Source of the DNA: Maribacter sp.
GTDB taxonomy: Bacteria; Bacteroidota; Bacteroidia; Flavobacteriales; Flavobacteriaceae
DNA: 43,423 nucleotides
Reading direction: 5' to 3'
Assembly: GCA_029287355.1 (NCBI GenBank)
Contig: JARFRH010000026.1
Span: 1 to 43,423 of the forward strand
Shown: one piece after another, positions 2,017 through 36,202 of the stretch
Layout: each line of letters opens with the position of its first letter
Position numbering within the stretch: position 1 is the first letter of the stretch
The notes under the pieces: generated by a model
What the model saw: only the letters and a program-made list of their open reading frames with translations
Told to the model about the DNA's origin: nothing
Databases searched by the model: none
Made by a program: the position numbers and the translations under genes

Positions 2017-2028
2017 TGACTATTATCA
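2017..2028 (-). promoter_or_regulatory. Crp/Fnr-like dyad TGATAATAGTCA (minus) for ppdK
   Basis: Centre 2022.5; perfect -7 TAATTTTG starts at 1993 (29.5 bp). Confidence 0.65.
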
Positions 2029-2139
2029 TACAATTTTGAATTGTTTTTCAAAGTATAGATATAAGGAAGGATTTTAAAAAACGGATGCCTTCTTATGTAA
2101 CAAAGGTTACACATAACCCCCATATTTATTGACTTTAGC

Positions 2140-2151
2140 TGACCTATGTCA
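2140..2151 (+). promoter_or_regulatory. Crp/Fnr-like dyad TGACCTATGTCA for DUF6799-like gene
   Basis: Centre 2145.5; -7 TATTTTTA at 2175 (29.5 bp). Confidence 0.65.
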
Positions 2152-2215
2152 TTGTAGGGGGTAGTTCTGTGCAATATTTTTACCTCATTATTAATCTAAA
2201 AAATGAAATGAAAAG

Positions 2216-2875
2216 ATGAAAAGAATACATTTTTTACTAGCATTTATAGTACTAGGAACTGCTGCACTAACAGCCCAAGATCAAGATAGAGATCAAGACC
2301 GGTTAATGTTGGTAGATGGCGATGTGCTCCAAATACGAGATCGTGATCAAATACGATTACAAGACCCTATTACCCTTGCTGACGGAACCATTGTAAACCC
2401 CGATGGTTGGTATACTACTCGAGATCGGGATCGCTTGCGTCTTCAAGATGGCGAATGTCTCGACAATGACGGTATAAAATATCGTAATGAATATCAATAC
2501 CGTTACAAGGTAAAACAGGAGAACAAAGGCTTGACCGATGCCCAAATTCAGGAACGCAATCAAAATCGATATCAGGTAATGTTGATTGATGGCGAAGCCT
2601 TTCAAATTAGAAATCGCGAACAGCACCGAATTCAAGAACACGTAAATCTCGGAGATGGAATTATCGTCAATCCTGACGGCAGCTACCAAAATTCGCAGCA
2701 AAAACAATTGCGCCTTAAAGATGGCGAGTGCATCAACATGGACGGTGCGATGTTTAAAAACACCTACCAACATCGTAAAATGATGGTTCAAAAAAACATG
2801 AAGGCGAACAAAATGATGAAAAAGGGAACAAAAAAGCCTATGACCAAAAAAAAGATAGGTAAAAAATCCTCCTAA
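2216..2875 (+). CDS. Secreted protein with two tandem DUF6799-like repeats (RDRDQ-rich)
   Basis: Signal peptide MKRIHFLLAFIVLGTAALTAQ; two about 85-aa repeats with (L/I)xDG...IVNPDG...LR LxDGEC. Confidence 0.75.
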   Translation: MKRIHFLLAFIVLGTAALTAQDQDRDQDRLMLVDGDVLQIRDRDQIRLQDPITLADGTIVNPDGWYTTRDRDRLRLQDGECLDNDGIKYRNEYQYRYKVKQENKGLTDAQIQERNQNRYQVMLIDGEAFQIRNREQHRIQEHVNLGDGIIVNPDGSYQNSQQKQLRLKDGECINMDGAMFKNTYQHRKMMVQKNMKANKMMKKGTKKPMTKKKIGKKSS

Positions 2876-2886
2876 TAATCCCTAGT

Positions 2887-2924
2887 GGGGCTTTAGCATA
2901 GGAATTTGATAAAGCCCCTTTCTA
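2887..2924 (+). terminator. Rho-independent terminator after the DUF6799-like gene
   Basis: GGGGCTTTA (2887-2895) / TAAAGCCCC (2910-2918) followed by TTTCT. Confidence 0.7.
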
Positions 2925-2945
2925 TTGACTTAATTTGTCCGCGCC

Positions 2946-3845
2946 ATGAAAATAAGACTCTTATGCTATTCACTTATAGCGTTTTTGATAAGTAAAGGCC
3001 TTATGGCCCAAAACAATCCACAATCAATTAAGGAAAAATCTAGCGAAGACAAATCGTATGTTTTGATGGATGTTAGTTACATCAATGACGCCGTATTTAT
3101 GGGAAGACGTGATTCAATTGCTGCCCCTTATCTATATCCTTCTATTGGATATTATGATAAATCGGGATTCTTTGCCGATGCTTCCGTCTCATATCTCACA
3201 GGTTCTGAAGAGAACCGAGTAGATTTATTCTTGATTACCGTAGGTTATATAGTCGACACCAAAAAATGGAGGGGTGGCATTTCGGGAACTGGCTATTTTT
3301 ACAATGAAGATAGCTACAATGTATTGTCGGAAGTTGTGGGCGACTTCACAGGTATCCTCAGCTATGACCTAAAGGCATTCGAACTGTCAATATCTGCCAG
3401 CAGTTATTTCAGCAACAGCTCAGCAGATATATTTGTTGGATTTATGGTCGATCGCACCTTTTATGCCGCGGAAAATAAACTCTTGATCGACCCTCGTATA
3501 TCATTATATGCAGGGTCACAATATTTTTATGAAGAATACTACAGCACCAGCCGTTTGGGCAACCGAAAAGGCGAGGGTAAGGGTTCTGGCAGTTCTGAAC
3601 CAACCATGGTTACTTCCGTTGAAATTACCGAAGCTTCCGAATTCAATTTTTTGGCGGTGGAGCTGAGTCTTCCTTTGCAATACTATCACAATTCATTTAT
3701 TTTTTCCGTTACCCCTGTTCTGGCCATTCCGCAAAGCAGTGCCACAATCACTAGCGAGGACGCCGTAATTAGTGAAAATTTGGAAAGTGTTTTCTATTTT
3801 TCTGCGGGAATCAGTTACTGGTTTAATACCAAGAAAAATGATTAA
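2946..3845 (+). CDS. Hypothetical secreted/outer-membrane protein
   Basis: 299-aa ORF with signal peptide and alternating beta-strand-like pattern ending in an aromatic/polar C-terminus. Confidence 0.6.
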   Translation: MKIRLLCYSLIAFLISKGLMAQNNPQSIKEKSSEDKSYVLMDVSYINDAVFMGRRDSIAAPYLYPSIGYYDKSGFFADASVSYLTGSEENRVDLFLITVGYIVDTKKWRGGISGTGYFYNEDSYNVLSEVVGDFTGILSYDLKAFELSISASSYFSNSSADIFVGFMVDRTFYAAENKLLIDPRISLYAGSQYFYEEYYSTSRLGNRKGEGKGSGSSEPTMVTSVEITEASEFNFLAVELSLPLQYYHNSFIFSVTPVLAIPQSSATITSEDAVISENLESVFYFSAGISYWFNTKKND

Positions 3846-3879
3846 TACTTATCTATTAATTCCTCATGACTGTAAGTTG

Positions 3880-3893
3880 GTAACAATAGTTAC
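3880..3893 (+). promoter_or_regulatory. Second-type dyad GTAACAATAGTTAC for the RND operon
   Basis: Centre 3886.5; perfect -7 TAATTTTG at 3916 (29.5 bp). Related dyad GTAACAAAGGTTAC at 2097-2110. Confidence 0.6.
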
Positions 3894-3942
3894 TCTGCAG
3901 ATGAATTTACCACAGTAATTTTGTCATAAATAAATTGATACA

Positions 3943-5244: not shown

Positions 5245-5291
5245 ATACAAACGATAACATCAATAACAAGAAGTACCTAATATAAAATGAT

Positions 5292-6371: not shown

Positions 6372-6480
6372 ACGGGCCTGCATTAGGCATGCCCATCGGC
6401 AGGCAGGGATTGTAGCGGTTACCCCGCTTCCATCAGTTGGCAGAGAGGGGTAAGAGCGGAAAGCTCGCCCGAACGCTCAA
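6372..6480. repeat. Structured intergenic element between adaptor and permease genes (REP-like)
   Basis: GCCTGC...GGCAGGC and TTACCCC...GGGGTAA inverted repeats plus AGGGATTGTAGCGG / GAGCGGAAAGCTCGCCCGAACGC blocks. Confidence 0.45.
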
Positions 6481-11304: not shown

Positions 11305-11703
11305 CTAAAGAAATCCTCCTATATAATTGTAAATCCTTGTTTTGTAATCGTTAATACCTGCATAGAATTCCTCAAAACAATCTTTTAACACCTTATGGTT
11401 TTCCAAGTAGTAGGTATCGCAAGAAATGTCCTGACACTCCAAAAAACCGCGCAATTTGTCCTCATATTCGGTGATTTCTTTTTTTAGATTCTTCGCTTCC
11501 AATGTTCTGGTACCTACTTCTTGCTTGAACTGTTGTAATCGCTCAAAAAGATTGGGTGTGTTATTCTTGTATATATGGGCATTCAATAACTTTTCTATAA
11601 ACTGGGTTTCAGTCTCAATAGATTCAAGGGTTGATTTCCACCATTGGGCATCACGTTGAAAAGCGGTCAATAGTTCTTCCTGTGTATTTTGTTCGCCCAA
11701 CAT
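11305..11703 (-). CDS. Hypothetical coiled-coil protein
   Basis: 132-aa ORF, helix-rich; preceded by Crp/Fnr-like dyad and -7 element. Confidence 0.65.
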   Translation of the reverse strand: MLGEQNTQEELLTAFQRDAQWWKSTLESIETETQFIEKLLNAHIYKNNTPNLFERLQQFKQEVGTRTLEAKNLKKEITEYEDKLRGFLECQDISCDTYYLENHKVLKDCFEEFYAGINDYKTRIYNYIGGFL

Positions 11704-11756
11704 TTTTAATATTTTAAAATTAATCTAAAATTACGTTTTGTGACGTCTTCTTAAAA

Positions 11757-11768
11757 TGATCGTTGTCA
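11757..11768 (-). promoter_or_regulatory. Crp/Fnr-like dyad TGACAACGATCA (minus) for 11305-11703
   Basis: Centre 11762.5; -7 TAATTTTA starts at 11733 (29.5 bp). Confidence 0.65.
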
Positions 11769-11786: not shown

Positions 11787-12815
11787 CTAAAGGATTTGCA
11801 ACACTTTAGCACCTCTGATCTTTTGTTCCTTGAGCTCAATGAGTACTTCGTTGGCTTGTTCCAAAGGATATATTTGGTACGCTGGTTTGATGGAAGCCTT
11901 TACAGCCAGTTCCAAAAAATCGGCTACGTCTTTACTTGTTACATTGGCGACCGACTTGATTTCCTTTTCCATCCAAAGATGGTCTCGGTAAGACAGATTT
12001 TGAAGATAGAGCATATCATTTTTCTCTTTACGGATGGCATTGATGACCAATCGGCCACCTTTTTGGAGATTGCCAAGGGCTTCCACAGTGGGTTTCCATG
12101 CGGGCGTGGTATCGATAATGGCATCTAGTTTTTCAGGGGACGGGTCGGCAGTATCGCCCGACCAGACGGCCCCAAGTTCCTTGGCGAACTGCCTTTCCTC
12201 GGCATTTCTTGCGAACACAAAAACTTTTGTATTCGGATAGCTGTGGTTGACCATTTTGAGCACTAAATGTGCAGAAGCCCCAAAACCCGTTAGTCCCAAA
12301 TTATCCCCATCCTTGATTAGTGCAAGTTGAAGGGAGCGGTAACCGATGGCCCCTGCACATAGCAAAGGGGCTGCTTCGGCATCTGTAAAAAAGTTGGGAA
12401 TGGCATGGGTGTATTGTTCGGGAACTGTCATATATTCGGTATAACCACCGTTCACGTCCTTTCCAGTGCCTATAAAATCATCACATAGGTTTTCATTGCT
12501 CTCCAGACAAAATTTGCATTTACCACAGGCGGAAAATATCCATGCTACCCCAACTCGATCGCCGACCTTGAATTTTGAAGTGCTTTTGCCTAATTTCTCC
12601 ACAATACCAATAACTTGATGCCCAAGGACCACGGGAAGTTTTGGCGGTACCAACCTTCCCTCGATTTCATCGAGTTCGGTATGGCAGACGCCACAGACCG
12701 AAATTTTAATACGTACTTCCCCATTCTTTGGTATGGGTATAGGAATATCGACCAAATCAAGGGGTAAACTATTCTCTTTTACCAAAGAAATCCTATTAAG
12801 AACCATTGCTTTCAT
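11787..12815 (-). CDS. Zinc-dependent alcohol dehydrogenase family protein
   Basis: CGVCHTELDEIEGRL...LGHQVIG and structural Zn motif CGKCKFCLESNENLC. Confidence 0.93.
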   Translation of the reverse strand: MKAMVLNRISLVKENSLPLDLVDIPIPIPKNGEVRIKISVCGVCHTELDEIEGRLVPPKLPVVLGHQVIGIVEKLGKSTSKFKVGDRVGVAWIFSACGKCKFCLESNENLCDDFIGTGKDVNGGYTEYMTVPEQYTHAIPNFFTDAEAAPLLCAGAIGYRSLQLALIKDGDNLGLTGFGASAHLVLKMVNHSYPNTKVFVFARNAEERQFAKELGAVWSGDTADPSPEKLDAIIDTTPAWKPTVEALGNLQKGGRLVINAIRKEKNDMLYLQNLSYRDHLWMEKEIKSVANVTSKDVADFLELAVKASIKPAYQIYPLEQANEVLIELKEQKIRGAKVLQIL

Positions 12816-12963
12816 ACATCGATTTGTTGTCGTCCCATATTCACTTTACCATAAGAATCAAATGAGGGTAATTAATAAGGGCGCTTTTTATCATAAGCCA
12901 TCAGTGTGGGAATCCTTAAAGATTAATTATCATAAATGTAATTGAAACAGTCCCGGTTCTATA

Positions 12964-12975
12964 TGATGTCCGTCA
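12964..12975. promoter_or_regulatory. Bidirectional Crp/Fnr-like dyad TGATGTCCGTCA
   Basis: Centre 12969.5; plus -7 TAATTTTA at 12999 and minus -7 TACATTTA starting at 12940, both 29.5 bp away. Confidence 0.7.
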
Positions 12976-13031
12976 TTTTAACTATTAGGGCATTTCGTTA
13001 ATTTTATCCGGAAACCAAAGTGAAATCACAA

Positions 13032-13700
13032 ATGAAGACAGAACAGGAATATAAATCCGTAAATATTACCTTAGATGGGCTTACGCTAAAAGGAAATCTC
13101 GCTATTCCCAAAAACGCAATCGGGATGGTCATTTTTTCACATGGGAGCGGGAGTAGTCGTCTAAGTCCTAGAAATAATTATGTGGCCGGGGTTTTACAAG
13201 AAAAGGGGTTGGCCACCTTATTGTTCGACTTATTGACCGAAAAGGAAGATGGGGTTTATGAAAATAGGTTCAATATCGATTTGATTACCATGCGCCTTAT
13301 TGATGTTACGCAGTGGGTACAGCATCAAAAAGAAGTCAAGGGTTTGTCAATCGGATATTTTGGGGCGAGTACAGGAGCTGCTTCGGCATTACGGGCAGCC
13401 GCTTTTTATGGCAATGACATTATGGCCGTGGTCTCAAGGGGAGGTAGGCCGGATCTCGCACTACAGGATCTATACAAAGTAACAGCACCTACACTCTTGA
13501 TTGTTGGAGGTCGGGACAATGTGGTCATCGAACTAAATGAAAAAGCCTATCAAAAACTACAATGCGAAAGGAAACTGGAAATTATACCCAAAGCCACACA
13601 CTTGTTCGAAGAACCGGGCAAATTGGAAGAAGTAGCTCGGATATCGGCCAACTGGTTTGCCGCACATTTACAACCAGAAAAAAAAGCGAAAGATGTTTAA
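13032..13700 (+). CDS. Alpha/beta hydrolase (dienelactone hydrolase-like)
   Basis: IFSHGSGSSRLSPRN...IGYFGASTGAASAL...ATHLFEEPG; ATG at 13032 preferred over GTG at 13020. Confidence 0.88.
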   Translation: MKTEQEYKSVNITLDGLTLKGNLAIPKNAIGMVIFSHGSGSSRLSPRNNYVAGVLQEKGLATLLFDLLTEKEDGVYENRFNIDLITMRLIDVTQWVQHQKEVKGLSIGYFGASTGAASALRAAAFYGNDIMAVVSRGGRPDLALQDLYKVTAPTLLIVGGRDNVVIELNEKAYQKLQCERKLEIIPKATHLFEEPGKLEEVARISANWFAAHLQPEKKAKDV

Positions 13701-14401: not shown

Positions 14402-15046
14402 TCATTTTTTAGTCGCTTTCACAACCACAAAAGACCCTTCCCCATAGCCTGCCTTCGGCATTTGTACTTCTTTGATTTCGTCTAAATCGCCAAACAGCGT
14501 CTGTATGAATTCCAGATTCTTGAATCCATTTTCCTTAAGCAATTTCTCTATTCGGTCAACAGAATAGAAAGTGGCCTTTCCAAAAAAGGTACTGCGGTGG
14601 CGCTTTCCCAAATATTGTTTTGCCACGCTTTGGTCCTTATCCAAAAAACCGATCAAGATGGCACCCTTGTGTTTCAATACCCTATGAGCCTCTGCCAAGG
14701 CTTGCTTAATTTTATCAAGGTGGCATACGGTCACAAAAAGCACAAAATCGAATTGCAAATCGCTATAGGGAAGACTTTCCGCAACGCCATCTATTACCTC
14801 GATTCCCCTTCCTATGGCTTTTTTGGCCATGGCCTTAGAAGGTTCAACACCTTCTTTGATACCTAAAGGAAGTGCAAACTGTCCTGTACCAAGACCCACT
14901 TCGATACCCCGCAAGTTTTCGGGTAATTTCTGTAACTGTTCCCTTATGGCCATTATCTCCGATTGATAGACCTCGGCATAGGCTTCATACCATTTTTCGT
15001 ATGCTTCAACATTTTTGTCGAATATTTCTGTCTGTAACATAATCAT
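14402..15046 (-). CDS. Class I SAM-dependent methyltransferase
   Basis: GIEVGLGTGQFALPLG...; start moved to ATG 15046 (or 15040) because a putative promoter lies at about 15071-15064. Confidence 0.85.
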   Translation of the reverse strand: MIMLQTEIFDKNVEAYEKWYEAYAEVYQSEIMAIREQLQKLPENLRGIEVGLGTGQFALPLGIKEGVEPSKAMAKKAIGRGIEVIDGVAESLPYSDLQFDFVLFVTVCHLDKIKQALAEAHRVLKHKGAILIGFLDKDQSVAKQYLGKRHRSTFFGKATFYSVDRIEKLLKENGFKNLEFIQTLFGDLDEIKEVQMPKAGYGEGSFVVVKATKK

Positions 15047-15094
15047 CTTGTTTTTAATTTTTCCAAATATCCCAACCAGTGGGATGATAAGCAA

Positions 15095-15106
15095 TGACCT
15101 TGATTA
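15095..15106 (-). promoter_or_regulatory. Weak Crp/Fnr-like dyad TAATCAAGGTCA (minus)
   Basis: One mismatch in dyad; -7-like GATATTTG starts at 15071 (29.5 bp). Confidence 0.4.
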
Positions 15107-15150: not shown

Positions 15151-16323
15151 TCAAAACCTAAAAAGCGCATTCATCGAACTACCTGTTACGGGCATTTCTT
15201 CGGAATTCAAAAAATATGCTTGGCCACCTTGGCGAAAGGTTTCCAATGCGGCAAGGTTGGTCAATGAGGTATTGTACGTTTCTTGTTGGTCGTCAATGGT
15301 AACTTTGTTGCTCTCGATATCATAAATACCGAAAAGATCAATGTCATTTTCAATGAAAAGGGTATCGACCTTTCCGTTCAAGGCAGCGTTGATAATCTCA
15401 TCAATCTCATAGGATGTCTTTTGGGTATGGTACAATTCCTTAAATTGCGTTAACTTCTCTGCTAGGGGTTTTGCGAAATGGGGTTCCATCAAATCCCAAG
15501 ATGCCTGGTGCAAACTTGTCTTCACTTTGAACTCTGGATCACCCCCTATGTTTTCTTGGTAAAGTTCAGTATATGTGCTCGCCTGCTTATAGAGATCGAA
15601 CAAATAGTCTACACAAGCTAATACCAAGGGCGCACTTTTATCTGAAATGGCCTTTTTCACTCCTTGATCAACTGCCTTGAAAAAGGTAAGCAGTTCTTTT
15701 CTATGATCATCCTTACCCTCACCGTGGCCGTGAAATACGCCAGCGCCATGTACGTTCTGACCGCTTCTAAACTGTAGCATTTTTGGCTTGTAGTCAAAGC
15801 CTACAGCCTCCTCTAGTCGATTTGGGGCAAAATCCTCAATGTTCATATCCTTAAAACCGTATCTAGATGCTTTATAGAGACGTATATAGTCTTGACTCAG
15901 CTCCAAAAGATAATATCGGCCATTATTATGGTAAAGTGCCAACAAGGGATTTAGATAAAAACGACTGGACACGTAAGTCTTTGCCTTGAATGCTATGGGT
16001 ACCTGATACAAGCGCATTCCTTCTTCCGGATCTAAGAAAATGACCAACCCTTCTGACGGATTCCTCCAGAGTTCAACCTGATCAAGAAGTTGCACTACGG
16101 GTTTAAGATAGTTAGCTATTTCGTCCTTATGCATTTGATGTTCCGTCAAAGTCACCTTCACTTTATTGATACTTTGTTTAAGTGAGGCTTGTGCCAGGTG
16201 CATGTTTTGCTCCTTTCCCTTTTTATCCATGGGGAGGTAGATGGAAATACAATGGAGTGCACGTTTCTCCATTAAGGATTCAAAAATTTCTTTTGGTAAC
16301 GGATGTGTTTCAGAAGTATGCAT
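15151..16323 (-). CDS. baeRF3-like (bacterial archaeo-eukaryotic release factor family) protein
   Basis: CISIYLPMDKKGKEQNMHLAQASLK...; start at ATG 16323 inferred from promoter position. Confidence 0.7.
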   Translation of the reverse strand: MHTSETHPLPKEIFESLMEKRALHCISIYLPMDKKGKEQNMHLAQASLKQSINKVKVTLTEHQMHKDEIANYLKPVVQLLDQVELWRNPSEGLVIFLDPEEGMRLYQVPIAFKAKTYVSSRFYLNPLLALYHNNGRYYLLELSQDYIRLYKASRYGFKDMNIEDFAPNRLEEAVGFDYKPKMLQFRSGQNVHGAGVFHGHGEGKDDHRKELLTFFKAVDQGVKKAISDKSAPLVLACVDYLFDLYKQASTYTELYQENIGGDPEFKVKTSLHQASWDLMEPHFAKPLAEKLTQFKELYHTQKTSYEIDEIINAALNGKVDTLFIENDIDLFGIYDIESNKVTIDDQQETYNTSLTNLAALETFRQGGQAYFLNSEEMPVTGSSMNALFRF

Positions 16324-16371
16324 GGCCAAACTATTTTGGGCCAATGTACCGATTGGATGGTATACTCAAAA

Positions 16372-16383
16372 TGATTTCAATCA
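16372..16383 (-). promoter_or_regulatory. Fnr-like dyad TGATTGAAATCA (minus) for the baeRF3-like gene
   Basis: Centre 16377.5; -7-like TACATTGG starts at 16348 (29.5 bp). Confidence 0.55.
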
Positions 16384-16456: not shown

Positions 16457-16837
16457 TCATTTGAAAAGGCTTTTGCCCTTTAGGCATTTTTCGATTGATG
16501 CCAAAAGTTCCTCTAATTCAAAGGGCTTAGTGATGTAAGCATCTGCTCCTGCATCCATACCCTTATTAACTTCCATTTTTTCGGATTTGGCACTAAAGAA
16601 AATAAAGGGAATTCTTTTAAGATCGGGATGTTGCCCTAGATTTTTGAGTACGGTAAAGCCATCCATTTCCGGCATAAGGAGGTCGCATAAAATCAAATCG
16701 GGCATGTGAAGTTTGATTTGTTCGAGGCCTATCTTCCCATTCGAGGCGGTCAAAGTAGCGTAGCCCTCAAGTTCCAGAAGTTCTGCCGTATTTTCTCGAA
16801 TGGTCGTGCTGTCCTCGATAATAAGGATTCTAATCAT
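16457..16837 (-). CDS. Response regulator receiver-domain protein (CheY-like)
   Basis: MIRILIIEDSTTIRENTAELLELEGY...PDLILCDLLMPEMDGF...YITKPFELEEL. Confidence 0.92.
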   Translation of the reverse strand: MIRILIIEDSTTIRENTAELLELEGYATLTASNGKIGLEQIKLHMPDLILCDLLMPEMDGFTVLKNLGQHPDLKRIPFIFFSAKSEKMEVNKGMDAGADAYITKPFELEELLASIEKCLKGKSLFK

Positions 16838-16994
16838 TGCCAAAGCGAATATTATAAAATTTGAGGGAGGAAAAAGATACAAAAAATAGTATAATTTGAA
16901 GGAATATTCTTCTTGTTTATGAAGCCTTGGATTATACCCGTCTTAAACTCAGGGGCGATATCAAGCTGTTATTTATAGGACAATTATCCCCAAC

Positions 16995-17006
16995 TGATGT
17001 GTGTCA
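16995..17006 (+). promoter_or_regulatory. Crp/Fnr-like dyad TGATGTGTGTCA for the GT3-GT35 gene
   Basis: Centre 17000.5; -7 TAGTTTTA at 17030 (29.5 bp). Confidence 0.65.
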
Positions 17007-17076
17007 TACCAAAAGTCTTTTCCTCCTCATAGTTTTATCCTTCAAATACCCTAATTAAATATATAGGTCTCCAAGC

Positions 17077-21930: not shown

Positions 21931-21942
21931 TGATGCATATCA
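21931..21942 (+). promoter_or_regulatory. Perfect Fnr-like palindrome TGATGCATATCA
   Basis: Centre 21936.5; -7-like TTTCTTTG at 21966 (29.5 bp, one mismatch). Confidence 0.5.
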
Positions 21943-22196
21943 TTTCACAAAAATGGTATCAATACTTTCTTTGCATTAGAACATTTTACAAACTGAAATT
22001 CAGAAAAAGCGAAGACTTTGAATACCCTTGCCCTAATCAGCAAGGAAAACCTCATAAAGGCTTGGTCTATTTTACAGGGCTTAAATTTGGGGATACCCGA
22101 AAATCGACGATTCTAAGAAAAGGTCATAAAAGTATCGTCAAAAAATAACAGAAAGGCAAAACAACGATACAAATTGATCCATACCAAATCTAACAA

Positions 22197-23147
22197 ATGC
22201 ACAAAATAGTCACCCTTACAATGAACCCCCTTGTAGAAAAGGATACTTCTGTCGCGAGTATCAGGCCAAATACCAAGTTACGTTGTGCTTCACCTACCTA
22301 CCAAGCGGGAGGAGGAGGCATCAATGTATCTCGTGCTTTGAATAAATTAGGAGGAAAATCACTTTGTATTTATTTGGCAGGCGGGTACAGAGGAGATCAC
22401 CTTAGAGAGCTGGTGGCGAATGCAGGCATAGCACAAGAAGTGATTTCGGTAGAAGGCCGGACCCGTGATTACCTTTCGGTAACCGATACCATTACGAACT
22501 TACAATACCGGTTCGGGGTACCGGGCCCCCACGTGAAAGAAAAAGAATGGGAACATGTCCTGAAGCTACTGGAAGAACACATTCAGAAAGGTGATTACTT
22601 GGTGGTCAGCGGTAAACTACCGCCGGGAGTTCCCCCGAATTTTTATGTAATGGTCTCTAAAATTACAGAAAAAAATGAGGCAAGACTTGTTCTGGATACC
22701 TCCGGTAAAGCATTGTTGCCAAGTATGGAAGCTAATATTTTTATGATGAAGCCAAATTTAGCGGAGCTTAGTATTCTAAATGGAGTAAAATCTATCTCGG
22801 CTATGGAATTGGAATCTTTTGCCATAAAGTTTCTAAAAGATTATTCCTGTGAGGTGCTGGTAGTTTCGTTAGGTGCAAACGGGGCCTTGCTAGCCACAAA
22901 AAATAAAATGGAACACATTTCCGCCCCAACGGTACTTCAAAAAAGTACTTTAGGAGCCGGGGATAGTATGGTGGCAGGAATGGTGCTAAGCCTAGTTCAA
23001 GGCAAATCCTTAGATGAAATGTTGCAATACGGAGTGGCCTGCGGTACTGCGGCTACCCTGCGCCCTGGCACACAGTTATGCGACAAAAAGGATGTGGATA
23101 GTTTATATGAATTGATAACTAAAGAGACAAAAATAAACCAAAACTGA
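22197..23147 (+). CDS. PfkB-family hexose kinase (1-phosphofructokinase-like)
   Basis: MNPLVEKDTSVASIRPNTKLRC...GGGGINVSRALNKLGG...STLGAGDSMVAGMVLSL. Confidence 0.92.
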   Translation: MHKIVTLTMNPLVEKDTSVASIRPNTKLRCASPTYQAGGGGINVSRALNKLGGKSLCIYLAGGYRGDHLRELVANAGIAQEVISVEGRTRDYLSVTDTITNLQYRFGVPGPHVKEKEWEHVLKLLEEHIQKGDYLVVSGKLPPGVPPNFYVMVSKITEKNEARLVLDTSGKALLPSMEANIFMMKPNLAELSILNGVKSISAMELESFAIKFLKDYSCEVLVVSLGANGALLATKNKMEHISAPTVLQKSTLGAGDSMVAGMVLSLVQGKSLDEMLQYGVACGTAATLRPGTQLCDKKDVDSLYELITKETKINQN

Positions 23148-23156
23148 CCTAGGTCA
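23145..23156 (+). promoter_or_regulatory. Perfect palindrome TGACCTAGGTCA upstream of a non-coding region
   Basis: Centre 23150.5; -7-like TACTTTAG at 23180 (29.5 bp). Confidence 0.65.
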
Positions 23157-23190
23157 TTTTAAAGTCAAAAGAGGGTATGTACTTTAGTAC

Positions 23191-23406
23191 CTTAATTAAT
23201 ACAACGTAGTTCTTTGAAAAAAAGTTGGGTCTTGTTCGGGGGAACTCAAGACCCAAAAAGCAAGAAGAGGTTACAGACACCCTTTCATACCTTTTGAATC
23301 GTGAACGGATCTAGTGATAGGTTCAAGTAGGGATCAGTATAAGTGGAAATCGGGTTGATTAACGTCTTCTAGGAGACCGGAACGTTTCGGCGTTCCGGTT
23401 TCTTTT
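23191..23406 (+). ncRNA. Candidate Crp/Fnr-controlled sRNA
   Basis: No convincing ORF; 5' hairpin TTGGGTCTTG...CAAGACCCAA (about 23226-23255); ends in ACCGGAACG TTTCGG CGTTCCGGT (23376-23399) plus TTTCTTTT. Confidence 0.55.
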
Positions 23407-23567
23407 AAAGAACAGCAAATTATTGATCGGTACGGTCGCAAGACGGTAGCGCTCATAGTAAAGAAGAAGGATGCAGTTGGTATCAAAGTTGATCCGCTAG
23501 ATTATTTTAGCAATAAGGTGGTTTTAAAGATTAATGACCGATATAGATGAATTCCATTTCTTTATGG

Positions 23568-23600
23568 AAAACAGGAAGTTTCGGCTTCCTGTTTTTTCTC
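23568..23600 (+). terminator. Terminator-like hairpin 2 of cluster
   Basis: AAAACAGGAAG TTTCGG CTTCCTGTTTT then T-rich tail. Confidence 0.7.
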
Positions 23601-23763
23601 TTTGACATGATAAATAAAGACAAAGGCTTCTAAGCAGTAATGCCTTAGCGGCCATACAATGGTATCGAAGCTATTTCTTTGATTTTGATAATCCAAGTAA
23701 TTGCGTAGCTAGTACGTTCCTGCTTGGTCTGCACTCAAGAATTAAGGGAAATCGATACCTAAA

Positions 23764-23798
23764 AAAAGACCGGAATACTCCACTATTCCGGTCTTTTA
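23764..23798. terminator. Bidirectional terminator-like hairpin 3 of cluster
   Basis: AAAAGACCGGAATA CTCCAC TATTCCGGTCTTTT, 14-bp perfect stem. Confidence 0.7.
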
Positions 23799-23823
23799 TA
23801 AAATATGATGAACACTTCAAAAG

Positions 23824-23856
23824 GAAACAGGAGACCTCGGGTCTCCTGTTTCTGTT
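23824..23856. terminator. Terminator-like hairpin 4 of cluster
   Basis: GAAACAGGAGACC TCG GGTCTCCTGTTTC, 13-bp perfect inverted repeat. Confidence 0.6.
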
Positions 23857-24023
23857 TAGGATCGAAACAAGTATTTCATGATAAAGAATTTTGAAAATAA
23901 CCACCTTAATAGCCGAGTTTCGAAAAATTCAATATGGTCTATAAATTCATGGTTCTACAGATGCTAGAGATTATCGTTGTCAAGAGCTCCAATCTATACT
24001 TTTATGTTTTAGATATTGATATC

Positions 24024-24293
24024 ATGAAAAAAATAGCTTTGAAGATCGGAATGCTAAAAATGACCGCACGTTCCTCTACATGATTTGTGGATCGCTTGAA
24101 AAACAAGGCGATAGCAGCGCTTCGCTTCCAAAAGCTCTTGGTCATCGGTATGACCGAAAATCTTACTGCACGAAATATTTTTGAGGTAGAACTCAAAAAA
24201 TAGTTCATCAAACACGGAATCAATGCTTAATAAAGCAGTATGACCATAGATCATTCTTTCACAGCCTCGAAAAGAAGCGAGTTAGAAATAGAA
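24024..24293 (+). pseudogene. Decayed small secreted/lipoprotein-like gene with several in-frame stops
   Basis: One frame gives MKKIALKIGMLKMTARSST*FVDRLKNKAIAALRFQKLLVIGMTENLTARNIFEVELKK*FIKHGINA**SSMTIDHSFTASKRSELEIEV*. Confidence 0.55.
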
Positions 24294-24416
24294 GTGTGAA
24301 GCAAAAACTTTTGCAAGAAGCTATTGGTTGGTTTATTTGTTTGGATATTGCCTTGTATCGCAAAATAAACATGTTACTAAAGAAAGCGGCCTAGTGACTT
24401 AAATGGGCACATTTGG

Positions 24417-25567: not shown

Positions 25568-26239
25568 TTAAACCAGTTTAAATCGTTCCTTGACCTTGAA
25601 CAGGATTCGGTCAACAATCTCCTTGGGCACCTCTAATATTTCGGAGATTTCGTGAGTATCCTGATTACCAAAAACGAGTAATTCGATGACCGTTTTACTT
25701 CTCAAGGGAATGGTGGTATACAATATCCCTAAAAGCCGTCTTTTTTCATCGGAAAGCAAGGAGGCTTCATGAAGTTCAAGTTTTCCCACCAATAGCTTTT
25801 CGAAGTATTCATCTAAATAAATCTGTTTGGACCAACCCGGTTTTTGTTGATAGGAAATATCGTCCAATTCTTCGTAGAGTATTCGATCGCCATCACCATC
25901 GGTAGTAAATTCTTCGTCCAAAGATTTCAATTCGGCCTTTAAAAGGGCATGGGTATTGACCTCATCGGGAACCTCTTCCGCCTTTTTACCTTCTATTTTT
26001 TGAATGGCCTTTTTAAAAAGCGATCTTCTCAGTTTTATGATGTCCGATTCAGCCGAAAAAGCATTAAAAGCTTCCAAGTAGACTTCATCCAACATTTCAT
26101 CAGTACTATAAAACCCCCTGTCAAGCAGTCCTTGGTTCTCCGTAGCTTTGAGGCTTCCGGTCATAAAATTCTTCAATTCGGGAACTAGAGCGGCAATTTT
26201 TTTATAAAACTGCTCAAAGTTGTTTTCCTGCTTATACAT
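25568..26239 (-). CDS. Sigma-70-like / HTH protein of unknown class
   Basis: C-terminal TIPLRSKTVIELLVFGNQDTHEISEILEVPKEIVDRILFKVKERF resembles sigma region 4; likely start MYKQENN at 26239. Confidence 0.5.
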   Translation of the reverse strand: MYKQENNFEQFYKKIAALVPELKNFMTGSLKATENQGLLDRGFYSTDEMLDEVYLEAFNAFSAESDIIKLRRSLFKKAIQKIEGKKAEEVPDEVNTHALLKAELKSLDEEFTTDGDGDRILYEELDDISYQQKPGWSKQIYLDEYFEKLLVGKLELHEASLLSDEKRRLLGILYTTIPLRSKTVIELLVFGNQDTHEISEILEVPKEIVDRILFKVKERFKLV

Positions 26240-26358
26240 ATGCAATTCTTTGGGCGACATAGTGTTTAGGATTAAAAAGTTGATATCGAATAATTCATTA
26301 ACAATTGGGGATTCGCATAAAAATATCGATAAATCAATCGAATAAATATGATATCCAT

Positions 26359-26384
26359 CAGTCTCCTTCAGTCTCCTTCAGTCC
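26359..26384. repeat. Short tandem repeat CAGTCTCCTT (2 full copies plus a partial third)
   Basis: CAGTCTCCTTCAGTCTCCTTCAGTCCCC. Confidence 0.7.
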
Positions 26385-28993: not shown

Positions 28994-29497
28994 TCATTGG
29001 TTGGAACCTACAGTAACCGTAGCATTCCCATCGCCAACCATAATCATCACGGTACGTTTCCCTTTTTCGCCAGCGAGATGGCCGCCCGTACCTGCAGTGG
29101 TAGTATACTTAATTTCAAAACCTTCGTTCTCCAGTTGCTCTTTGTATTTCACCAAGGCGGTTTGGGGCACATCTTCAAAAATGACCACCCAGTTCTTGTT
29201 CCCGTCCATTTCTTGTGTAGTAACACTGATTATAGTACCGTCCTTGAATTCAGGCACATCTCTTGGAATTTCTTTAGGCCAACTATTTACTGTACCGTCT
29301 GTGGTAAAGGTTCCCTCATCGGTTTTGATGACCACTTTCTCATCATCGATAGCTACTTCCGCCTCATCACCTATAGACTTTTCTATAATCTTTTCAGTGG
29401 TCTTTTCCACAGCTCTCTTACAGGAAACGGATGTTATGCCCATGACTAGAAATAATGTCAGCGCGTATCTAAAGTTGAATTTTTTGGAATGTTTCAT
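28994..29497 (-). CDS. Hypothetical lipoprotein
   Basis: Lipobox GITSVSCK; start at MKHSKKFNF (29497) fits promoter position. Confidence 0.7.
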   Translation of the reverse strand: MKHSKKFNFRYALTLFLVMGITSVSCKRAVEKTTEKIIEKSIGDEAEVAIDDEKVVIKTDEGTFTTDGTVNSWPKEIPRDVPEFKDGTIISVTTQEMDGNKNWVVIFEDVPQTALVKYKEQLENEGFEIKYTTTAGTGGHLAGEKGKRTVMIMVGDGNATVTVGSNQ

Positions 29498-29595
29498 TAT
29501 TACTTGTTTTAGAATGATTATTATTTGCATCACCCGTTAGTACAGAATCCCAGTGCGATGGTCTTAAAATTATGACGTCAATAGGCGTTCTACAA

Positions 29596-29607
29596 TGATG
29601 TAGGTCA
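29596..29607 (-). promoter_or_regulatory. Crp/Fnr-like dyad TGACCTACATCA (minus) for lipoprotein-VOC-SYLF operon
   Basis: Centre 29601.5; -7 TAATTTTA starts at 29572 (29.5 bp). Confidence 0.7.
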
Positions 29608-30071
29608 TTTTAACCGGCTGACTATAATCATTGAATGGCACTTCGGTTTTATCAATTTCGCAGGAAACATTTCTATTCCTTCAAATAAAAATGAACACTA
29701 CCAAAAACCTGATTTTCGCCAAATGTTACAATAAAGCTTTTGGAGCAAGGGTCGCAAAAATGATAGGTTGGGTTTTTAGTGCATACGAGGAAAGAGACTT
29801 TTTAGAATAGGAACTGAAGATAAGATCTTTGTTCGGTTAAAGGAGCATGGCCATATACATTTTACAAAGTCTCTTTGGTGAATCCGCACTATGTCCAGAA
29901 GAAAGAAATGACACTTGACGATTTAAGACAAAATATTGTATTGGAAAATTACCGAAAAGAACTAAATCTTAATTAATTGGAATTGGACCTTATCCGCGAT
30001 CTGATTTTTAAGACTGAAGTGCTCCTTCCGTTGCTTCCAATGCTTCCAAAAAATAGATTAGGTTTACTTTC

Positions 30072-30341
30072 CTATACCGTTGCCGTTTTTGATGCGTCAT
30101 TTCCATTAAGCAGGGGTAGGTCGGAAACTTGAAATTTGCACGATTGAATGTGGTATCCCAATCGTGACAGTTCTTGACGCACTTTTTGAAGCGCTATCGG
30201 AACCGCATACAATAAAAGCAGTAATCCTCTATCCACATCAATATCAATAATTCGTACGTCCATGATGCGGCATAAATTTCTCAATATGATTCTTTTATCT
30301 TCGGGGCAATTCAAATTTTCTAATTGTACCAGGGCTTTCAT
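30072..30341 (-). CDS. Small HMA-like (ferredoxin-fold) protein
   Basis: 89-aa ORF: VQLENLNCPEDKRIILRNLCRIMDVRIIDIDVDRGLLLL...LSRLGYHI; preceded by a dyad at the conserved distance. Confidence 0.55.
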   Translation of the reverse strand: MKALVQLENLNCPEDKRIILRNLCRIMDVRIIDIDVDRGLLLLLYAVPIALQKVRQELSRLGYHIQSCKFQVSDLPLLNGNDASKTATV

Positions 30342-30403
30342 AGTCTACTGAATTCGTTTTTAAGTAGGTTTCTCAATATAGGCCAACTCATTATGCTTTA
30401 AAA

Positions 30404-30415
30404 TGATGTAGGTCA
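30404..30415 (-). promoter_or_regulatory. Crp/Fnr-like dyad TGACCTACATCA (minus) for 30072-30341
   Basis: Identical dyad to 29596-29607; -7-like TATATTGA starts at 30380 (29.5 bp). Confidence 0.6.
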
Positions 30416-30605: not shown

Positions 30606-31481
30606 CTAAAGTGCTGCCTTAAAGTAAAATAACTGGTGGTTGCCCTCCCTAAAACTCAAAAGGGGCACCTTGCCATAGGTCTCCATTTTTTTGACCAGGT
30701 CCCGATGGAACCATTTTTTGGACAAACCCTTTTTTTTGCGTTCCAACATGACTATTAAATCCGCGTTGACCTCTCCAAGATAGAGCCGTAACGATTCAAA
30801 GACATCCTCTGAAAATAATAGTTCAAAACCTATTCTTGAATAGGTTACCTTCTTTTTTAGCTGATCTTTGAACCATTCCATGTGCATCTCTCCCACATAT
30901 TCTTTTTTGGTGGAAATATGGACAACCTTTATTTCCGCATCTAACGATTCGGCCATTTCGGCCAATTTTCGGATGGCGTAGATATCCTCTTCCTCAAAAT
31001 CGGATGCATATACGATCGTCTTCGGGTGCAAATAGCCTGCATCTGTGGGTACGGCCAAAATTGGACATGGTGCTTTCTCCATAAGGTGCTTTGTAGTGCT
31101 ACCCACTAAAAGCTCCCGTACGGCACTTTCGCCCTTAACACCTACGATGATCAAATAGGCATGCCAGTCTATTGCCTTCGAAATGATACCTTGTACAACC
31201 GACTTTTCAGTGACTGGCTCAACTTGCACATTAGGCGATTTCCATTGGTTCCCCAAATGTTCCGCACAGAATTCCTCCAATTGTTCTCGGTGATGTAAAA
31301 AGGCATTTTCCTCAGAATGCGGAAAGGGTTTATTCAGGTCTTCCAGTCCCAAAATTATTGGGTATCCGAATACATGGGTAACTACCAAACGCGTACCCAT
31401 TTCTTCGGACATTTTATGGGCGTATTTCAAAGCGGCTACGGAATTGATAGAATAATCTGTGGCGTACAGTATCGTTTTCAT
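30606..31481 (-). CDS. Universal stress protein (two tandem Usp domains)
   Basis: MKTILYATDYSINSVAALKYAHKMSEE...IIVGVKGESAVRELLVGSTTKHLMEKAPCPILAVP; second domain TIVYASDFEEEDIYAIRK. Confidence 0.93.
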   Translation of the reverse strand: MKTILYATDYSINSVAALKYAHKMSEEMGTRLVVTHVFGYPIILGLEDLNKPFPHSEENAFLHHREQLEEFCAEHLGNQWKSPNVQVEPVTEKSVVQGIISKAIDWHAYLIIVGVKGESAVRELLVGSTTKHLMEKAPCPILAVPTDAGYLHPKTIVYASDFEEEDIYAIRKLAEMAESLDAEIKVVHISTKKEYVGEMHMEWFKDQLKKKVTYSRIGFELLFSEDVFESLRLYLGEVNADLIVMLERKKKGLSKKWFHRDLVKKMETYGKVPLLSFREGNHQLFYFKAAL

Positions 31482-31534
31482 GATTTAAGGATTTTTCTAG
31501 CAGTAAAATTACCATCTCTCGGTCTAAAAATTTA

Positions 31535-31546
31535 TGACTTAGGTCA
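31535..31546 (-). promoter_or_regulatory. Crp/Fnr-like dyad TGACCTAAGTCA (minus) for Usp
   Basis: Centre 31540.5; -7 TAATTTTA starts at 31511 (29.5 bp). Confidence 0.7.
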
Positions 31547-31744
31547 TTAGAGGCGGCCCCTCCTTATCAATACATCTTCTGGAAACCTATAATTATCGGG
31601 GGCCGATATAGCCAATATTTGTAACGATGCCGTTTTAATTTCTGCGCGAAAAAAAAGCCACAAATAGAACCGATAGTTTTTATGGAAACTCGGGATCGGG
31701 TCGGCCGTAGCATCTGACGTAAGAGCAAAATCGTCTCGCCCACA

Positions 31745-32160: not shown

Positions 32161-32247
32161 CGCTGGCCAAAGCAAATCAGGTTATGATACCTTCGATACC
32201 ACAATGGTCAAGAAACATATCGAATTCCGAAACAAAATGGAGAACTC

Positions 32248-32259
32248 TGATCTAAGTCA
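32248..32259 (+). promoter_or_regulatory. Crp/Fnr-like dyad TGATCTAAGTCA for BON protein
   Basis: Centre 32253.5; -7 TACATTTA at 32283 (29.5 bp). Confidence 0.7.
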
Positions 32260-32318
32260 TTTAGAACGGCTACCCATAGCTGTACATTTAGGGTTAAATT
32301 AATTTAAAGTAAGATATC

Positions 32319-32987
32319 ATGAAAACAGATGCACAGATCAAACAGGATGTTTTGGATGAATTAGTATTTCACCCCAACATCGACGAGACCCAAATCGGGG
32401 TCATTGTTGAGGACGGAGTGGTTACTTTAAGTGGGGTGGTAAATGAGTACTCCAAGAAAGCAGCGGCAAATAAAGTAGCGAAAAGCGTGGTCGGGGTGAA
32501 GGCGGTTGCCGAGGATATAGAAGTCAAATATGGCGACGACTTTAAGAAGACCGATAAGGAAATCGCAAAAGCGGCGGTCAATGCTTTAGAATGGAATGCC
32601 ACCGTGCCCAAGGAAAAGGTCATGGTATTTGTAGAGGATGGATATATTTATCTAACGGGTGAAGTTGCTTGGGACTACGAACGGAATGCCGCTAAAAGAA
32701 CCCTACAAAACCTATTGGGCGTTAAAGGGGTAATCAATAATATCGAGATTGCGCCGAAAGTGAAAGCTCATAATATCGAAGAGCGGATTAAAAAGGCCTT
32801 TGAGCGTTCCGCAGATTTGGAAGCCAAGGGTATAAGGGTTCAAGTCGATGGCCATACACTACAGCTCAAAGGCAGGGTACATTCAATGAGAGAGAAGGAG
32901 TTGGCAGAAAAAACGGCCTATAAAGCCCCTGGCGTTCTTAAGGTACAAAATGACCTAGTTGTTCAGTATTATCCTGAATTCGCTTAG
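32319..32987 (+). CDS. BON-domain protein (three BON repeats)
   Basis: Three repeats such as DGVVTLSGVVNEYSKKAAANKVAKSVVGVKAVAEDIEV / DGYIYLTGEVAWDYERNAAKRTLQNLLGVKGVINNIEI / DGHTLQLKGRVHSMREKELAEKTAYKAPGVLKVQNDLVV. Confidence 0.92.
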   Translation: MKTDAQIKQDVLDELVFHPNIDETQIGVIVEDGVVTLSGVVNEYSKKAAANKVAKSVVGVKAVAEDIEVKYGDDFKKTDKEIAKAAVNALEWNATVPKEKVMVFVEDGYIYLTGEVAWDYERNAAKRTLQNLLGVKGVINNIEIAPKVKAHNIEERIKKAFERSADLEAKGIRVQVDGHTLQLKGRVHSMREKELAEKTAYKAPGVLKVQNDLVVQYYPEFA

Positions 32988-33010
32988 TTGATATTGGTCC
33001 GGAATTAAAC

Positions 33011-33259
33011 ATGAAGAGCAGCATGCAAAGCATTGCGGCATCAAAAAAGAATAAATTCTTGTTACCCAAATAGGGAAATGTCAAAAGCGAACAGATTCAT
33101 TATTATGAGCACGTAGCGCATTGCATGCTACCCTATCTAAATAAGCGCCCTTTGACTATGAATCGATTTTCAAGTGACATTGCAAAGGATGGGTTCTACC
33201 AAAAGAACACACCGTACAATTTTCCCGATTGGAAAAAATATCAAGATAATAAAGAATAG
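33011..33259 (+). pseudogene. LigD-type DNA polymerase (primase) domain remnant
   Basis: In frame: ...KKNKFLLPK*GNVKSEQIHYYEHVAHCMLPYLNKRPLTMNRFSSDIAKDGFYQKNTPYNFPDWKKYQDNKE*. Confidence 0.75.
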
Positions 33260-33376
33260 TTGTTGGGTAAATCAGGTCATCTGCGATACCACGGAAATAC
33301 TTGTTCATCCGCCCAGGCCAAGGTCATCACTTCAAAGTAATACCTAAATTTAATAATAATAAATTTTCGTCAGTAA

Positions 33377-36058
33377 ATGAAGAAGCCCATTGAGAATCCT
33401 CATTCATTTGACGTGCAGGACGTTATTGTCGCCTTGTCAAGTAAGAGTGATGGCCTCGATACCGAGGATGCTAAAGAACGTTTAGAAAATTACGGTCCTA
33501 ATGCACTTCCTGAGGCACAACGAATTTCATTGCTCAAGTTGTACATAAGACAGTTTAAAAACCTAATGGTACTTATCTTGATACCCGCGGCGATTATCTC
33601 ATATGCCGTCGGACAAGTTGTAGACTGTTGGATAATTGTTTTTATAATATTTACGGATACGGTTTTTGGTTTTTTTCAGGAATATCGTGCAGAAAAAGCC
33701 ATTACATCCCTTCAAAAAATAATTGTAAAAACGGCAAAGGTATTAAGGGATGGAAAACAAAAAACCATACTTTCTTCTGAGGTGGTTCCAGGTGATGTAT
33801 TAGTCCTGGAAGAAGGCGACCGTGTTGCTGCAGACGCCAGAATCATTCAATCTAAAAATTTTAGAACCATGGAGGCCTCGCTTACCGGTGAATCACTACC
33901 CGTAAGTAAGAATATTGATTCATTAAGCGCTGATACGTTGCTTGCCGATCAAAAGAATATGGTTTGGAGTGGAACGTTTGTGGCTGGTGGGTACGCTAAA
34001 GTAATTGTTACCTCAACAGGCACTGGCACCGCTATTGGGGAGATATCCAGGGCACTCACCAAGATTGCTATTCGTAAGACGAATTTCATACAAAAGACAA
34101 ATGTTCTAGCCAAACAAATGTCCATTATTGCCATAATCAGTGCCGCCACCTTATTCCTAACAGGATATTTTATACGACACCTCGAACTAGATGAAATTCT
34201 ACTCACATCGATTGCCGCATTGGTCGCTGCCATACCAGAAAGTTTACCAGCACTCATTACGGTGGTTTTGGCTATCGGTGCTCACCGTATGTCCAAACGA
34301 AATGTAATTATTCGCGATTTTACCGCTACAGAAACACTCGGAGCAGTATCCGTAATTCTTACGGACAAGACTGGAACGCTTACGCAGAATTCGCTTACCG
34401 TGAAAAAAGTTTTTGTTTTTGGCACAGAAGAATATTCAGTTTCTGGAGAAGGTTGGTTCCCTGTAGGGAATTTCATATATGATAATGCCATAATTGAGGT
34501 AGACCGAAACAATGTCTTATCGCATCTTTTGAAGATAGCGGTCATTTCAAATAATTCGGAAATAATTCACAATAAAGAACAGAATAAACACGAGCTGATT
34601 GGAGACCCAACAGAGGGTGCCTTGTCAGTTCTGGGGAGAAAAGGGGGATTACTGCCCGAACAATTCAATCAACTTAAGTCAGATGATTTACCATTTAGTT
34701 CGATTACTAAGTTAAGAGCAACTTTAATAAAACAGGTAGGTCAATTTGAACTATGCGTGATTGGGGCGCCAGAGGAATTACTCGACCGCTCAATTAGTGT
34801 TTTAACGCCTCAGGGTGAAACAGCATTGACCGAAGCGAAAAAAAATAAAATTGAACAAAAAATAACGGAATGGTCTAATCAGGCTATGCGCGTACTCGCC
34901 CTGGCGTACAAAAAACAAGCAGCAGAATCGATAGATGAAGGTGCAATTGATGGGTTGGTGTTTGTTGGTGTCGTAGGTATGATTGACCCTCCCAGATCAG
35001 ATGCTAAAGAGTCCGTAAGAAAATGTAAAGAAGCGGGCATACGAGTAATCATGGTAACAGGAGATCACGTAAATACTGCCGCAGCAATTGCCCGGGCTAC
35101 CGGTATCATTACAGAAGATCCTAAACATGAAGTAAAGGCAATAAGCCAGCAACAACTTCTTCAATTGGACGAAGATGAATTTGATGATACCATCAAGAAT
35201 GTTTCTGTATTTGCTCGCCTCACACCCCAAATGAAACTAAGGATCGCTGGACGATTACAAAGTATGGGACATCTGATAGCGATGACCGGTGACGGTGTCA
35301 ATGACGCACCTGCGTTAAAGCAAGCCGATGTTGGTATAGCCATGGGAATTATGGGCACGGATATGGCTCGGGAAACATCTGATGTAATTTTAGCGGATGA
35401 CAATTTTGCGACGATAGTCAACGCAATTGAAGAAGGAAGGATCGTCTTCACTAATTCGCGAAATACAAGTTTCTTTCTGGTGACGACAAATATTGCAGAA
35501 AGTGTTACACTACTTGTTTCCATTATGATAGGACTTCCAATACCCTTAACGGCAACCCAACTCCTTTGGCTGAACATTGTCACCGATGGCGTTACGGATA
35601 TGGCTCTTGCTACCGAACCAGGCCATGAAGGAATAATGAAGGAGAAACCTATTGCGAAGAAGGAAAAAATAATGAATCGTAAGGTCTTGCCTCACATATT
35701 GATCAATGTTGGCGTTATGACTATACTTACAATCGGTGCTTTTTTCCATTACATTGATGAAGATTTGGAAAAAGCGCGTACGGTAGCTTTTGTTATAATG
35801 TCTTTTACGCAACTGTACAATGTATTCAACCTAAGATCCCTTAAAGGATCAGTATTCAAACTAGGTTTCTTCACAAACAAGTATATTAATTGGGGGGTTG
35901 GCCTTTCGGCGCTACTTTTGATAATTATTACACAGGTACCAATACTGTCATCACTCTTTCATTTTCAACCGCTTGACTTCGTTGAGTATATGATGTTCTT
36001 CGGAATTTCTTCGCTTGTTCTATGGATGAGTGAACTTTATAAATTAGTAAAAAAATAA
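33377..36058 (+). CDS. Cation-translocating P-type ATPase
   Basis: SLTGESLPV, ILTDKTGTLTQNSL, MTGDGVNDAPALKQADVGIAMG. Confidence 0.96.
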   Translation: MKKPIENPHSFDVQDVIVALSSKSDGLDTEDAKERLENYGPNALPEAQRISLLKLYIRQFKNLMVLILIPAAIISYAVGQVVDCWIIVFIIFTDTVFGFFQEYRAEKAITSLQKIIVKTAKVLRDGKQKTILSSEVVPGDVLVLEEGDRVAADARIIQSKNFRTMEASLTGESLPVSKNIDSLSADTLLADQKNMVWSGTFVAGGYAKVIVTSTGTGTAIGEISRALTKIAIRKTNFIQKTNVLAKQMSIIAIISAATLFLTGYFIRHLELDEILLTSIAALVAAIPESLPALITVVLAIGAHRMSKRNVIIRDFTATETLGAVSVILTDKTGTLTQNSLTVKKVFVFGTEEYSVSGEGWFPVGNFIYDNAIIEVDRNNVLSHLLKIAVISNNSEIIHNKEQNKHELIGDPTEGALSVLGRKGGLLPEQFNQLKSDDLPFSSITKLRATLIKQVGQFELCVIGAPEELLDRSISVLTPQGETALTEAKKNKIEQKITEWSNQAMRVLALAYKKQAAESIDEGAIDGLVFVGVVGMIDPPRSDAKESVRKCKEAGIRVIMVTGDHVNTAAAIARATGIITEDPKHEVKAISQQQLLQLDEDEFDDTIKNVSVFARLTPQMKLRIAGRLQSMGHLIAMTGDGVNDAPALKQADVGIAMGIMGTDMARETSDVILADDNFATIVNAIEEGRIVFTNSRNTSFFLVTTNIAESVTLLVSIMIGLPIPLTATQLLWLNIVTDGVTDMALATEPGHEGIMKEKPIAKKEKIMNRKVLPHILINVGVMTILTIGAFFHYIDEDLEKARTVAFVIMSFTQLYNVFNLRSLKGSVFKLGFFTNKYINWGVGLSALLLIIITQVPILSSLFHFQPLDFVEYMMFFGISSLVLWMSELYKLVKK

Positions 36059-36190
36059 GGTTCTTTCCCAGGTTTCCGAATCCTGCCCGGCACTGTAAGT
36101 GGCATTTTCAATTGTAGCGTCTAAAAGATGAAGCAACGCTTCAACATTTCGATAGCCCAGACGAATACCAATTGAATATTTGTGAGTCAC

Positions 36191-36202
36191 TGATCAATAT
36201 CA
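36191..36202 (+). promoter_or_regulatory. Fnr-like dyad TGATCAATATCA for acs-pdh-acp operon
   Basis: Centre 36196.5; -7-like TACATTAG at 36226 (29.5 bp). Confidence 0.6.

Follow-up and report, generated by a model that had tools for sequence, protein, structure and literature searches.

The window analysed here, 43,423 nt in length, spans positions 1 to 43,423 of contig JARFRH010000026.1 from Maribacter sp. (assembly GCA_029287355.1), and corresponds to contig 251 of a 4.23 Mb assembly with 59% A+T. Scattered along it is a composite promoter element, in which a Crp/Fnr-type dyad stands at a fixed distance from a -7 box of the Bacteroidota type. We defined its strict form as TGAYN4RTCA-N23-TANNTTT and used the reversed pattern as control. 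Two of the strict elements lie near the left edge, one at 1987..2028 on the minus strand (dyad 2017-2028, -7 TAATTTT from 1993) facing a PPDK-like gene which starts at 1945 and runs off the window, the other at 2140..2181 (+) facing a gene for a DUF6799 protein (2216-2875). These are followed by 11727..11768 (-, dyad 11757) at the gene of a 132-residue protein with no Pfam match (11305-11703), and by 12934..13005, where two strict elements on opposite strands share the dyad 12964-12975, the left one belonging to a zinc-type alcohol dehydrogenase gene (11787-12815) and the right one to an alpha/beta-hydrolase gene (13032-13700). The element at 16995..17036 (+) precedes a 1416-residue glycogen synthase/phosphorylase fusion gene (17077-21327). 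The remaining ones are found at 26319..26360 (-, dyad 26349), absent from the initial annotation, for a 230-residue protein with no Pfam match (25568-26260); at 29566..29607 (-, dyad 29596) for a predicted 178-residue protein (28994-29530); at 31505..31546 (-, dyad 31535) for a universal stress protein (Usp; 30606-31481); and at 32248..32289 (+) for a triple-BON protein (32319-32987).

Other copies depart from the strict form. One-mismatch -7 boxes are carried by the elements at 16342..16383 (-, dyad 16372, TACATTG), whose gene 15151-16344 encodes a baeRF-domain protein and has its ATG some 25 nt beyond the first T of the box; at 21931..21973 (+, TTTCTTTG), where the next ATG, that of a PfkB kinase gene (22197-23147), is 231 nt away; at 23145..23187 (+, TACTTTA within TACTTTAG), which faces a gene-free stretch with a predicted structured RNA at about 23192-23406 ending in a terminator; at 30374..30415 (-, dyad 30404, TATATTG), with a small open reading frame (ORF) for 89 residues (30072-30341) starting 39 nt after the first T; and at 36191..36232 (+, TACATTA), upstream of an acyl-CoA synthetase gene (36268-38001), after which come the E1-alpha, E1-beta and E2 dehydrogenase genes (38003-41185). 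The weakest copy, at 15062..15106 (-, dyad 15095), has both an imperfect dyad (TAATCAAGGTCA) and a one-mismatch -7 box in register (GATATTTG); it lies near a methyltransferase gene (14402-15094) whose annotated start overlaps the element, so that a later ATG would be used. All dyads listed in the initial annotation are present, the one at 15095 being imperfect, and in every case, in the direction that it had given, 29.5 bp separate the dyad centre from the first base of a -7-like octamer.

The ten strict elements compare with 0.02 expected (maximum 1) in 200 Markov-resampled windows of the same dinucleotide make-up; for the dyad, 17 copies in the window compare with 2.9 expected. The initial annotation had staked its regulon on an excess of the spaced dyad in the genome, and the scan bore this out. 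Allowing N22 to N25, there are 82 matches against 4 for the reversed pattern, and 74 of the 82 have exactly N23, where the control gives 1; a broader scan from N8 to N38 returned 161 matches in total, which leaves about 3 at each spacing other than N23. Positions that played no part in the selection are also constrained at the N23 sites. The base 5′ of the dyad is A or C at 96% (A 56%, C 40%, T 1%), T directly follows the dyad at 91% as against 34% at 47 off-register dyads, and a purine follows TTT at 93%. The fuller element is thus MTGAYN4RTCAT-N22-TAnnTTTR.

Start-site mapping in Flavobacterium places the TAnnTTTG -7 box at -12 to -5 (PMC9723704), and the dyad centre therefore falls at -41.5, at a constant distance from the core promoter. 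This is the class II position, the start-site position being taken from that study, and the locked spacing together with the 74 sites supports the proposal of a Crp/Fnr-type dyad at class II position of sigma-A promoters serving a large regulon. The short leaders that had been described toward the genes hold for the most part: the start codon comes a median of 34 nt after the first T, and 57 of the 72 N23 sites with an assigned ORF fall within 5-70 nt. Exceptions in the window are the plus-strand elements at 21931 and 23145 mentioned above. In seven cases one dyad serves both strands (12964-12975 in the window, the others on contigs C9, C20, C78, C231, C239 and C336), and at four of these the spacing is exactly N23 in both directions; for this reason a single dimer may drive two promoters that face opposite ways. 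In E. coli, divergent promoters are known to be activated from a single Crp site.

Targets assigned by Pfam across the genome include 12 Usp proteins, ccoNO of the cbb3 oxidase, two PPDKs and pyruvate/2-oxoacid:ferredoxin oxidoreductases (POR), along with FtsH, DnaJ, thioredoxin, OsmC, peroxiredoxin, flavin reductases and a molybdopterin oxidoreductase. BON proteins, the glycogen synthase-phosphorylase fusion and a Crp/Fnr gene on contig 9 also belong to the set, as does a radical-SAM protein, possibly HemN, which was confirmed to superfamily level only. Taken together, these functions are those of a regulon for low oxygen and stress. In F. psychrophilum cbb3 is induced by oxygen limitation (PMC9723704). 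Among relatives, 17 of 25 genomes have a strict element with N23 or with a second spacing, N45, ahead of their ccoNO orthologues, in most cases at a distance of 200-290 nt; a relaxed tandem form is seen in another two. The core of the regulon is respiratory, and much of the membership seen in the window looks lineage-specific.

No regulator gene lies within the window, as had been noted. HTH_Crp_2 and cNMP_binding searches of the genome gave four strong candidates, on contigs 9, 128, 231 and 275. The contig 9 protein is Fnr-like, with a CxxC near the N terminus and two later Cys, a pattern kept in most relatives examined; the layout differs from the four-Cys layout of the [4Fe-4S] E. coli-type Fnr. 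By its sequence it is probably an iron-sulphur (Fe-S) oxygen sensor. Its gene stands between a Usp gene and the cco genes and has the element in its own promoter, which suggests autoregulation. The other three proteins are fusions in which a receiver, a cNMP_binding domain and HTH_Crp_2 form a single polypeptide. Their receivers keep the residues of a response regulator (D52, E8/D9 and K104 are invariant in ten aligned fusions), and in alignment with E. coli CRP the Arg82/Ser83 contacts to cyclic AMP (cAMP) are absent. All four candidates have the recognition helix ATE[ST]xIR. Compared with VETISR of E. coli FNR, it retains Glu and Arg and has Ile in place of Ser, a change that would suit a box with the TGA core but no outer T. 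Fusions 231 and 275 are encoded behind PAS histidine kinases. For the C275 kinase the nearest solved PAS structures are DosP and FixL, with residues that fit only partly; the C231 kinase is without a FixL-type motif, and the PAS kinase of one relative (G173) has such a motif (MPEPHHSGHDGYI...IIGIGR). The initial annotation had assumed a single Crp/Fnr-family activator, which finds no support in a genome where one Fnr-like protein and three receiver-Crp fusions have near-identical recognition helices.

The element follows three of the four regulator genes. It lies directly behind the Fnr-like gene and behind fusions 128 and 275, ahead of Usp genes. Around fusion genes of other genomes we found 22 N23 elements in 554 kb against 2.0 expected from the density of each genome, and for 14 of 45 fusion genes an element follows on the same strand, no more than 150 bp beyond the stop, where 0.02 would be expected. 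A gene on the same strand lies directly upstream of the fusion in 26 of 29 cases, and in 25 of these it has the histidine-kinase H-box. Near the fusion genes the spacing also shows a second peak at N45 (21 matches), mostly formed by tandem dyads 22 bp apart of which the second is often degenerate, so that the tandem dyads of relatives correspond to sites at -63.5 and -41.5. Over the class the N45 form counts 681 against 268 for the control.

The distribution was followed in 246 other genomes of the class Bacteroidia, where 1341 copies of the strict N23 element compare with 187 matches to the reversed pattern; the Maribacter genome has the highest number (74, the next 42). From these we compared 30 element-rich with 30 element-poor genomes, chosen by element count. 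A full-length fusion is present in 27 of the 30 element-rich genomes, representing 17 families, and in 5 of the 30 element-poor ones (Fisher p about 1e-8, phylogeny ignored), with named matches including Aquimarina, Salinimicrobium, Chitinophaga, Jiulongibacter, Arcticibacter, Flavobacterium and Sphingobacterium. An Fnr-like protein (E below 1e-38) is found in 22 of 30 and 2 of 30, respectively, by a comparison that likewise ignores phylogeny. Eight element-rich genomes have the fusion and no close Fnr-like protein (in G054 the fusion is in two pieces), while G020 and G122 are element-rich with an Fnr-like protein and no fusion, and hence each kind of regulator can accompany the element alone. 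Because the genes of three of the four candidates are directly followed by the element and both kinds co-occur with it class-wide, the element is probably used by at least two kinds of regulator.

We consider it likely that the element acts as both operator and promoter in a class II Crp/Fnr-type regulon for low oxygen and stress, read by the Fnr-like protein and by phosphorylated receiver-Crp fusions. A dimer would bind MTGAYN4RTCAT centred at -41.5, beside the sigma-A -7 box TAnnTTTR, and recruit polymerase; the proteins that read the operator, all with the ATE[ST]xIR helix, would be of two kinds, namely Fnr-like proteins and receiver-Crp response regulators. Phosphorylation of the receiver Asp by a PAS histidine kinase would control DNA binding by the fusion, in place of cAMP or an Fe-S cluster, with oxygen as the presumed signal, and a single polypeptide would combine the steps that FixJ and FixK perform in the rhizobial FixL-FixJ-FixK cascade. 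In many relatives two dimers may bind in tandem, at -63.5 and -41.5. Somewhat less firmly, with a slight balance in its favour, we propose that hypoxic control by such a PAS-kinase/receiver-Crp system extends throughout Bacteroidia, gated by phosphorylation, with single or tandem dyads as operators shared with an Fe-S Fnr, and that in Maribacter it has expanded to three paralogues, more than 70 promoters and a small-RNA family.

Several observations weigh against this scheme. No strict element stands directly behind 31 of the 45 fusion genes, and five element-poor genomes carry the fusion. The co-occurrence statistics ignore phylogeny and compare genomes selected by element count. Heme binding by the PAS domains is uncertain, the clear FixL motif being confined to one relative, and in the Maribacter genome the tandem N45 form gave one match only in a genome search, being a feature of relatives. 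The BON promoters of relatives have no strict element (0 of 13).

Among the alternatives the one that survives best, though we regard it as unlikely, is that the dyads are read by the Fnr-like protein only, the fusions binding other sites and being merely targets or neighbours. The element in the promoter of the Fnr-like gene, the cbb3 neighbourhood, the co-occurrence of 22 against 2 and the two fusion-free genomes G020 and G122 are all as it would predict; the eight element-rich genomes having a fusion and no close Fnr-like match are not, nor are the elements directly behind 14 of the 45 fusion genes and the matching recognition helices. The converse, that the dyads are read by the fusions alone while the Fnr-like protein uses a different operator, gains from the stronger linkage and co-occurrence of the fusion, but it has to account for G020 and G122, for the element of the Fnr-like gene itself and for the shared helix signature, and we hold it to be quite improbable. 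Still less probable is a regulon of cAMP-Crp or of an HcpR/Dnr-type sensor of nitric oxide (NO) instead of one for oxygen. These proteins belong to the same superfamily and have similar palindromes, and carbon sensing has been proposed for Crp/Fnr homologues of Flavobacteriales (PMC8510549). However, the fusions are without the cAMP contacts, and HcpR, which in Bacteroides and others is a further case of control by the Crp/Fnr family in Bacteroidota, differs in box, target and signal: its published boxes are TTGACN4GTCAA or GTAACN4GTTAC, and its target is hcp (PMC1274295), whereas here the outer T is seen at 1% of sites and hcp is not among the annotated targets of the genome. Both the cAMP-Crp and the HcpR readings were rejected on these grounds. 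Chance matches, conceivable for such short parts in a genome of this A+T content, have a negligible probability and were rejected, since the reversed-pattern, off-spacing and resampled controls all fail to reproduce the element.

The preferred two-regulator scheme has its closest known counterpart in FixL-FixJ-FixK together with FnrN of Alphaproteobacteria (PMC4999443), with which it has in common a PAS kinase, a response regulator and control of cco genes by a Crp/Fnr protein that is devoid of Fe-S Cys and works in parallel with a true Fnr. Unlike in that cascade, the receiver and the Crp/Fnr protein are here one polypeptide with no separate FixJ, so we do not count the system as a member. 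In addition, the box found here has A or C and not T outside TGA, and the promoters are of the Bacteroidota type. Class II FNR of E. coli shares the TGA...TCA palindrome at -41.5, the Glu and Arg of the recognition helix and, with the Fnr-like protein, the N-terminal CxxC; yet its box is TTGATN4ATCAA, which does not describe the present sites with their rare T before TGA, its Ser212 is Ile here, and the Cys layout differs in that the second C29-type Cys is missing from the Maribacter protein. The NmpRSTU system of Myxococcus xanthus (PMC11841059) is likewise a two-component regulon for oxygen utilisation that includes cbb3 oxidase, HemN and universal stress proteins, but it works through an NtrC-type regulator and a protoglobin sensor and is therefore a functional parallel built from other parts. 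In the full-text literature we found no description of receiver-Crp fusions, a search that does not cover subscription journals and so leaves their novelty unproven, and no published motif for oxygen limitation or the cbb3 switch in Bacteroidota. How these bacteria sense oxygen limitation and switch to cbb3 oxidase is poorly described, and the result offers a testable operator, a spacing rule, a target list and regulators for the whole class. The fusions would also be a natural case of a Crp fold seemingly gated by phosphorylation, not by a ligand or a cluster, and in these genomes they should face competition for their sites from an Fnr whose recognition helix is the same.

Three features lay outside the view of the initial annotation, namely the seven dyads used in both directions, the tandem arrangement at -63.5/-41.5 in relatives and the conserved cbb3 target. 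In the window, a second dyad (29619-29630) lies 23 bp upstream of the one at 29596, 1 bp more than in the 22-bp tandems of relatives. The predicted RNA behind the 23145 element would be about 215 nt long and end in a strong terminator. It has two relatives in the same genome (C78 and C215, 69-72% identity; loci L051:4190-4397 and L074:2680-3370), each with a TGACCYRGGTCA dyad in the same position and register, and 12 predicted pairs change on both sides among the three sequences, which is no more than suggestive. Rfam has no match in the window at the gathering threshold, and below it only an L20_leader match, opposite the RNA on the other strand. Within 23192-24400 the RNA is followed by another three terminator-like hairpins, parts of which are also repeated on C215.

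Among the genes of the window, the single chain of the 1416-residue protein (17077-21327) comprises glycogen synthase, DUF3417 and phosphorylase regions; no full-length counterpart was found in the 30 element-rich genomes searched, where the parts are separate or absent. The baeRF gene (15151-16344, -), named for bacterial archaeo-eukaryotic release factor-like proteins, is among the candidate targets, and it adjoins a gene for a receiver-only protein (16457-16882, -), 120 residues of which align at 52% identity with the receiver of the C128 fusion. A SoFic-like Fic-domain protein is encoded at the margin of the cluster (42030-43115, -).

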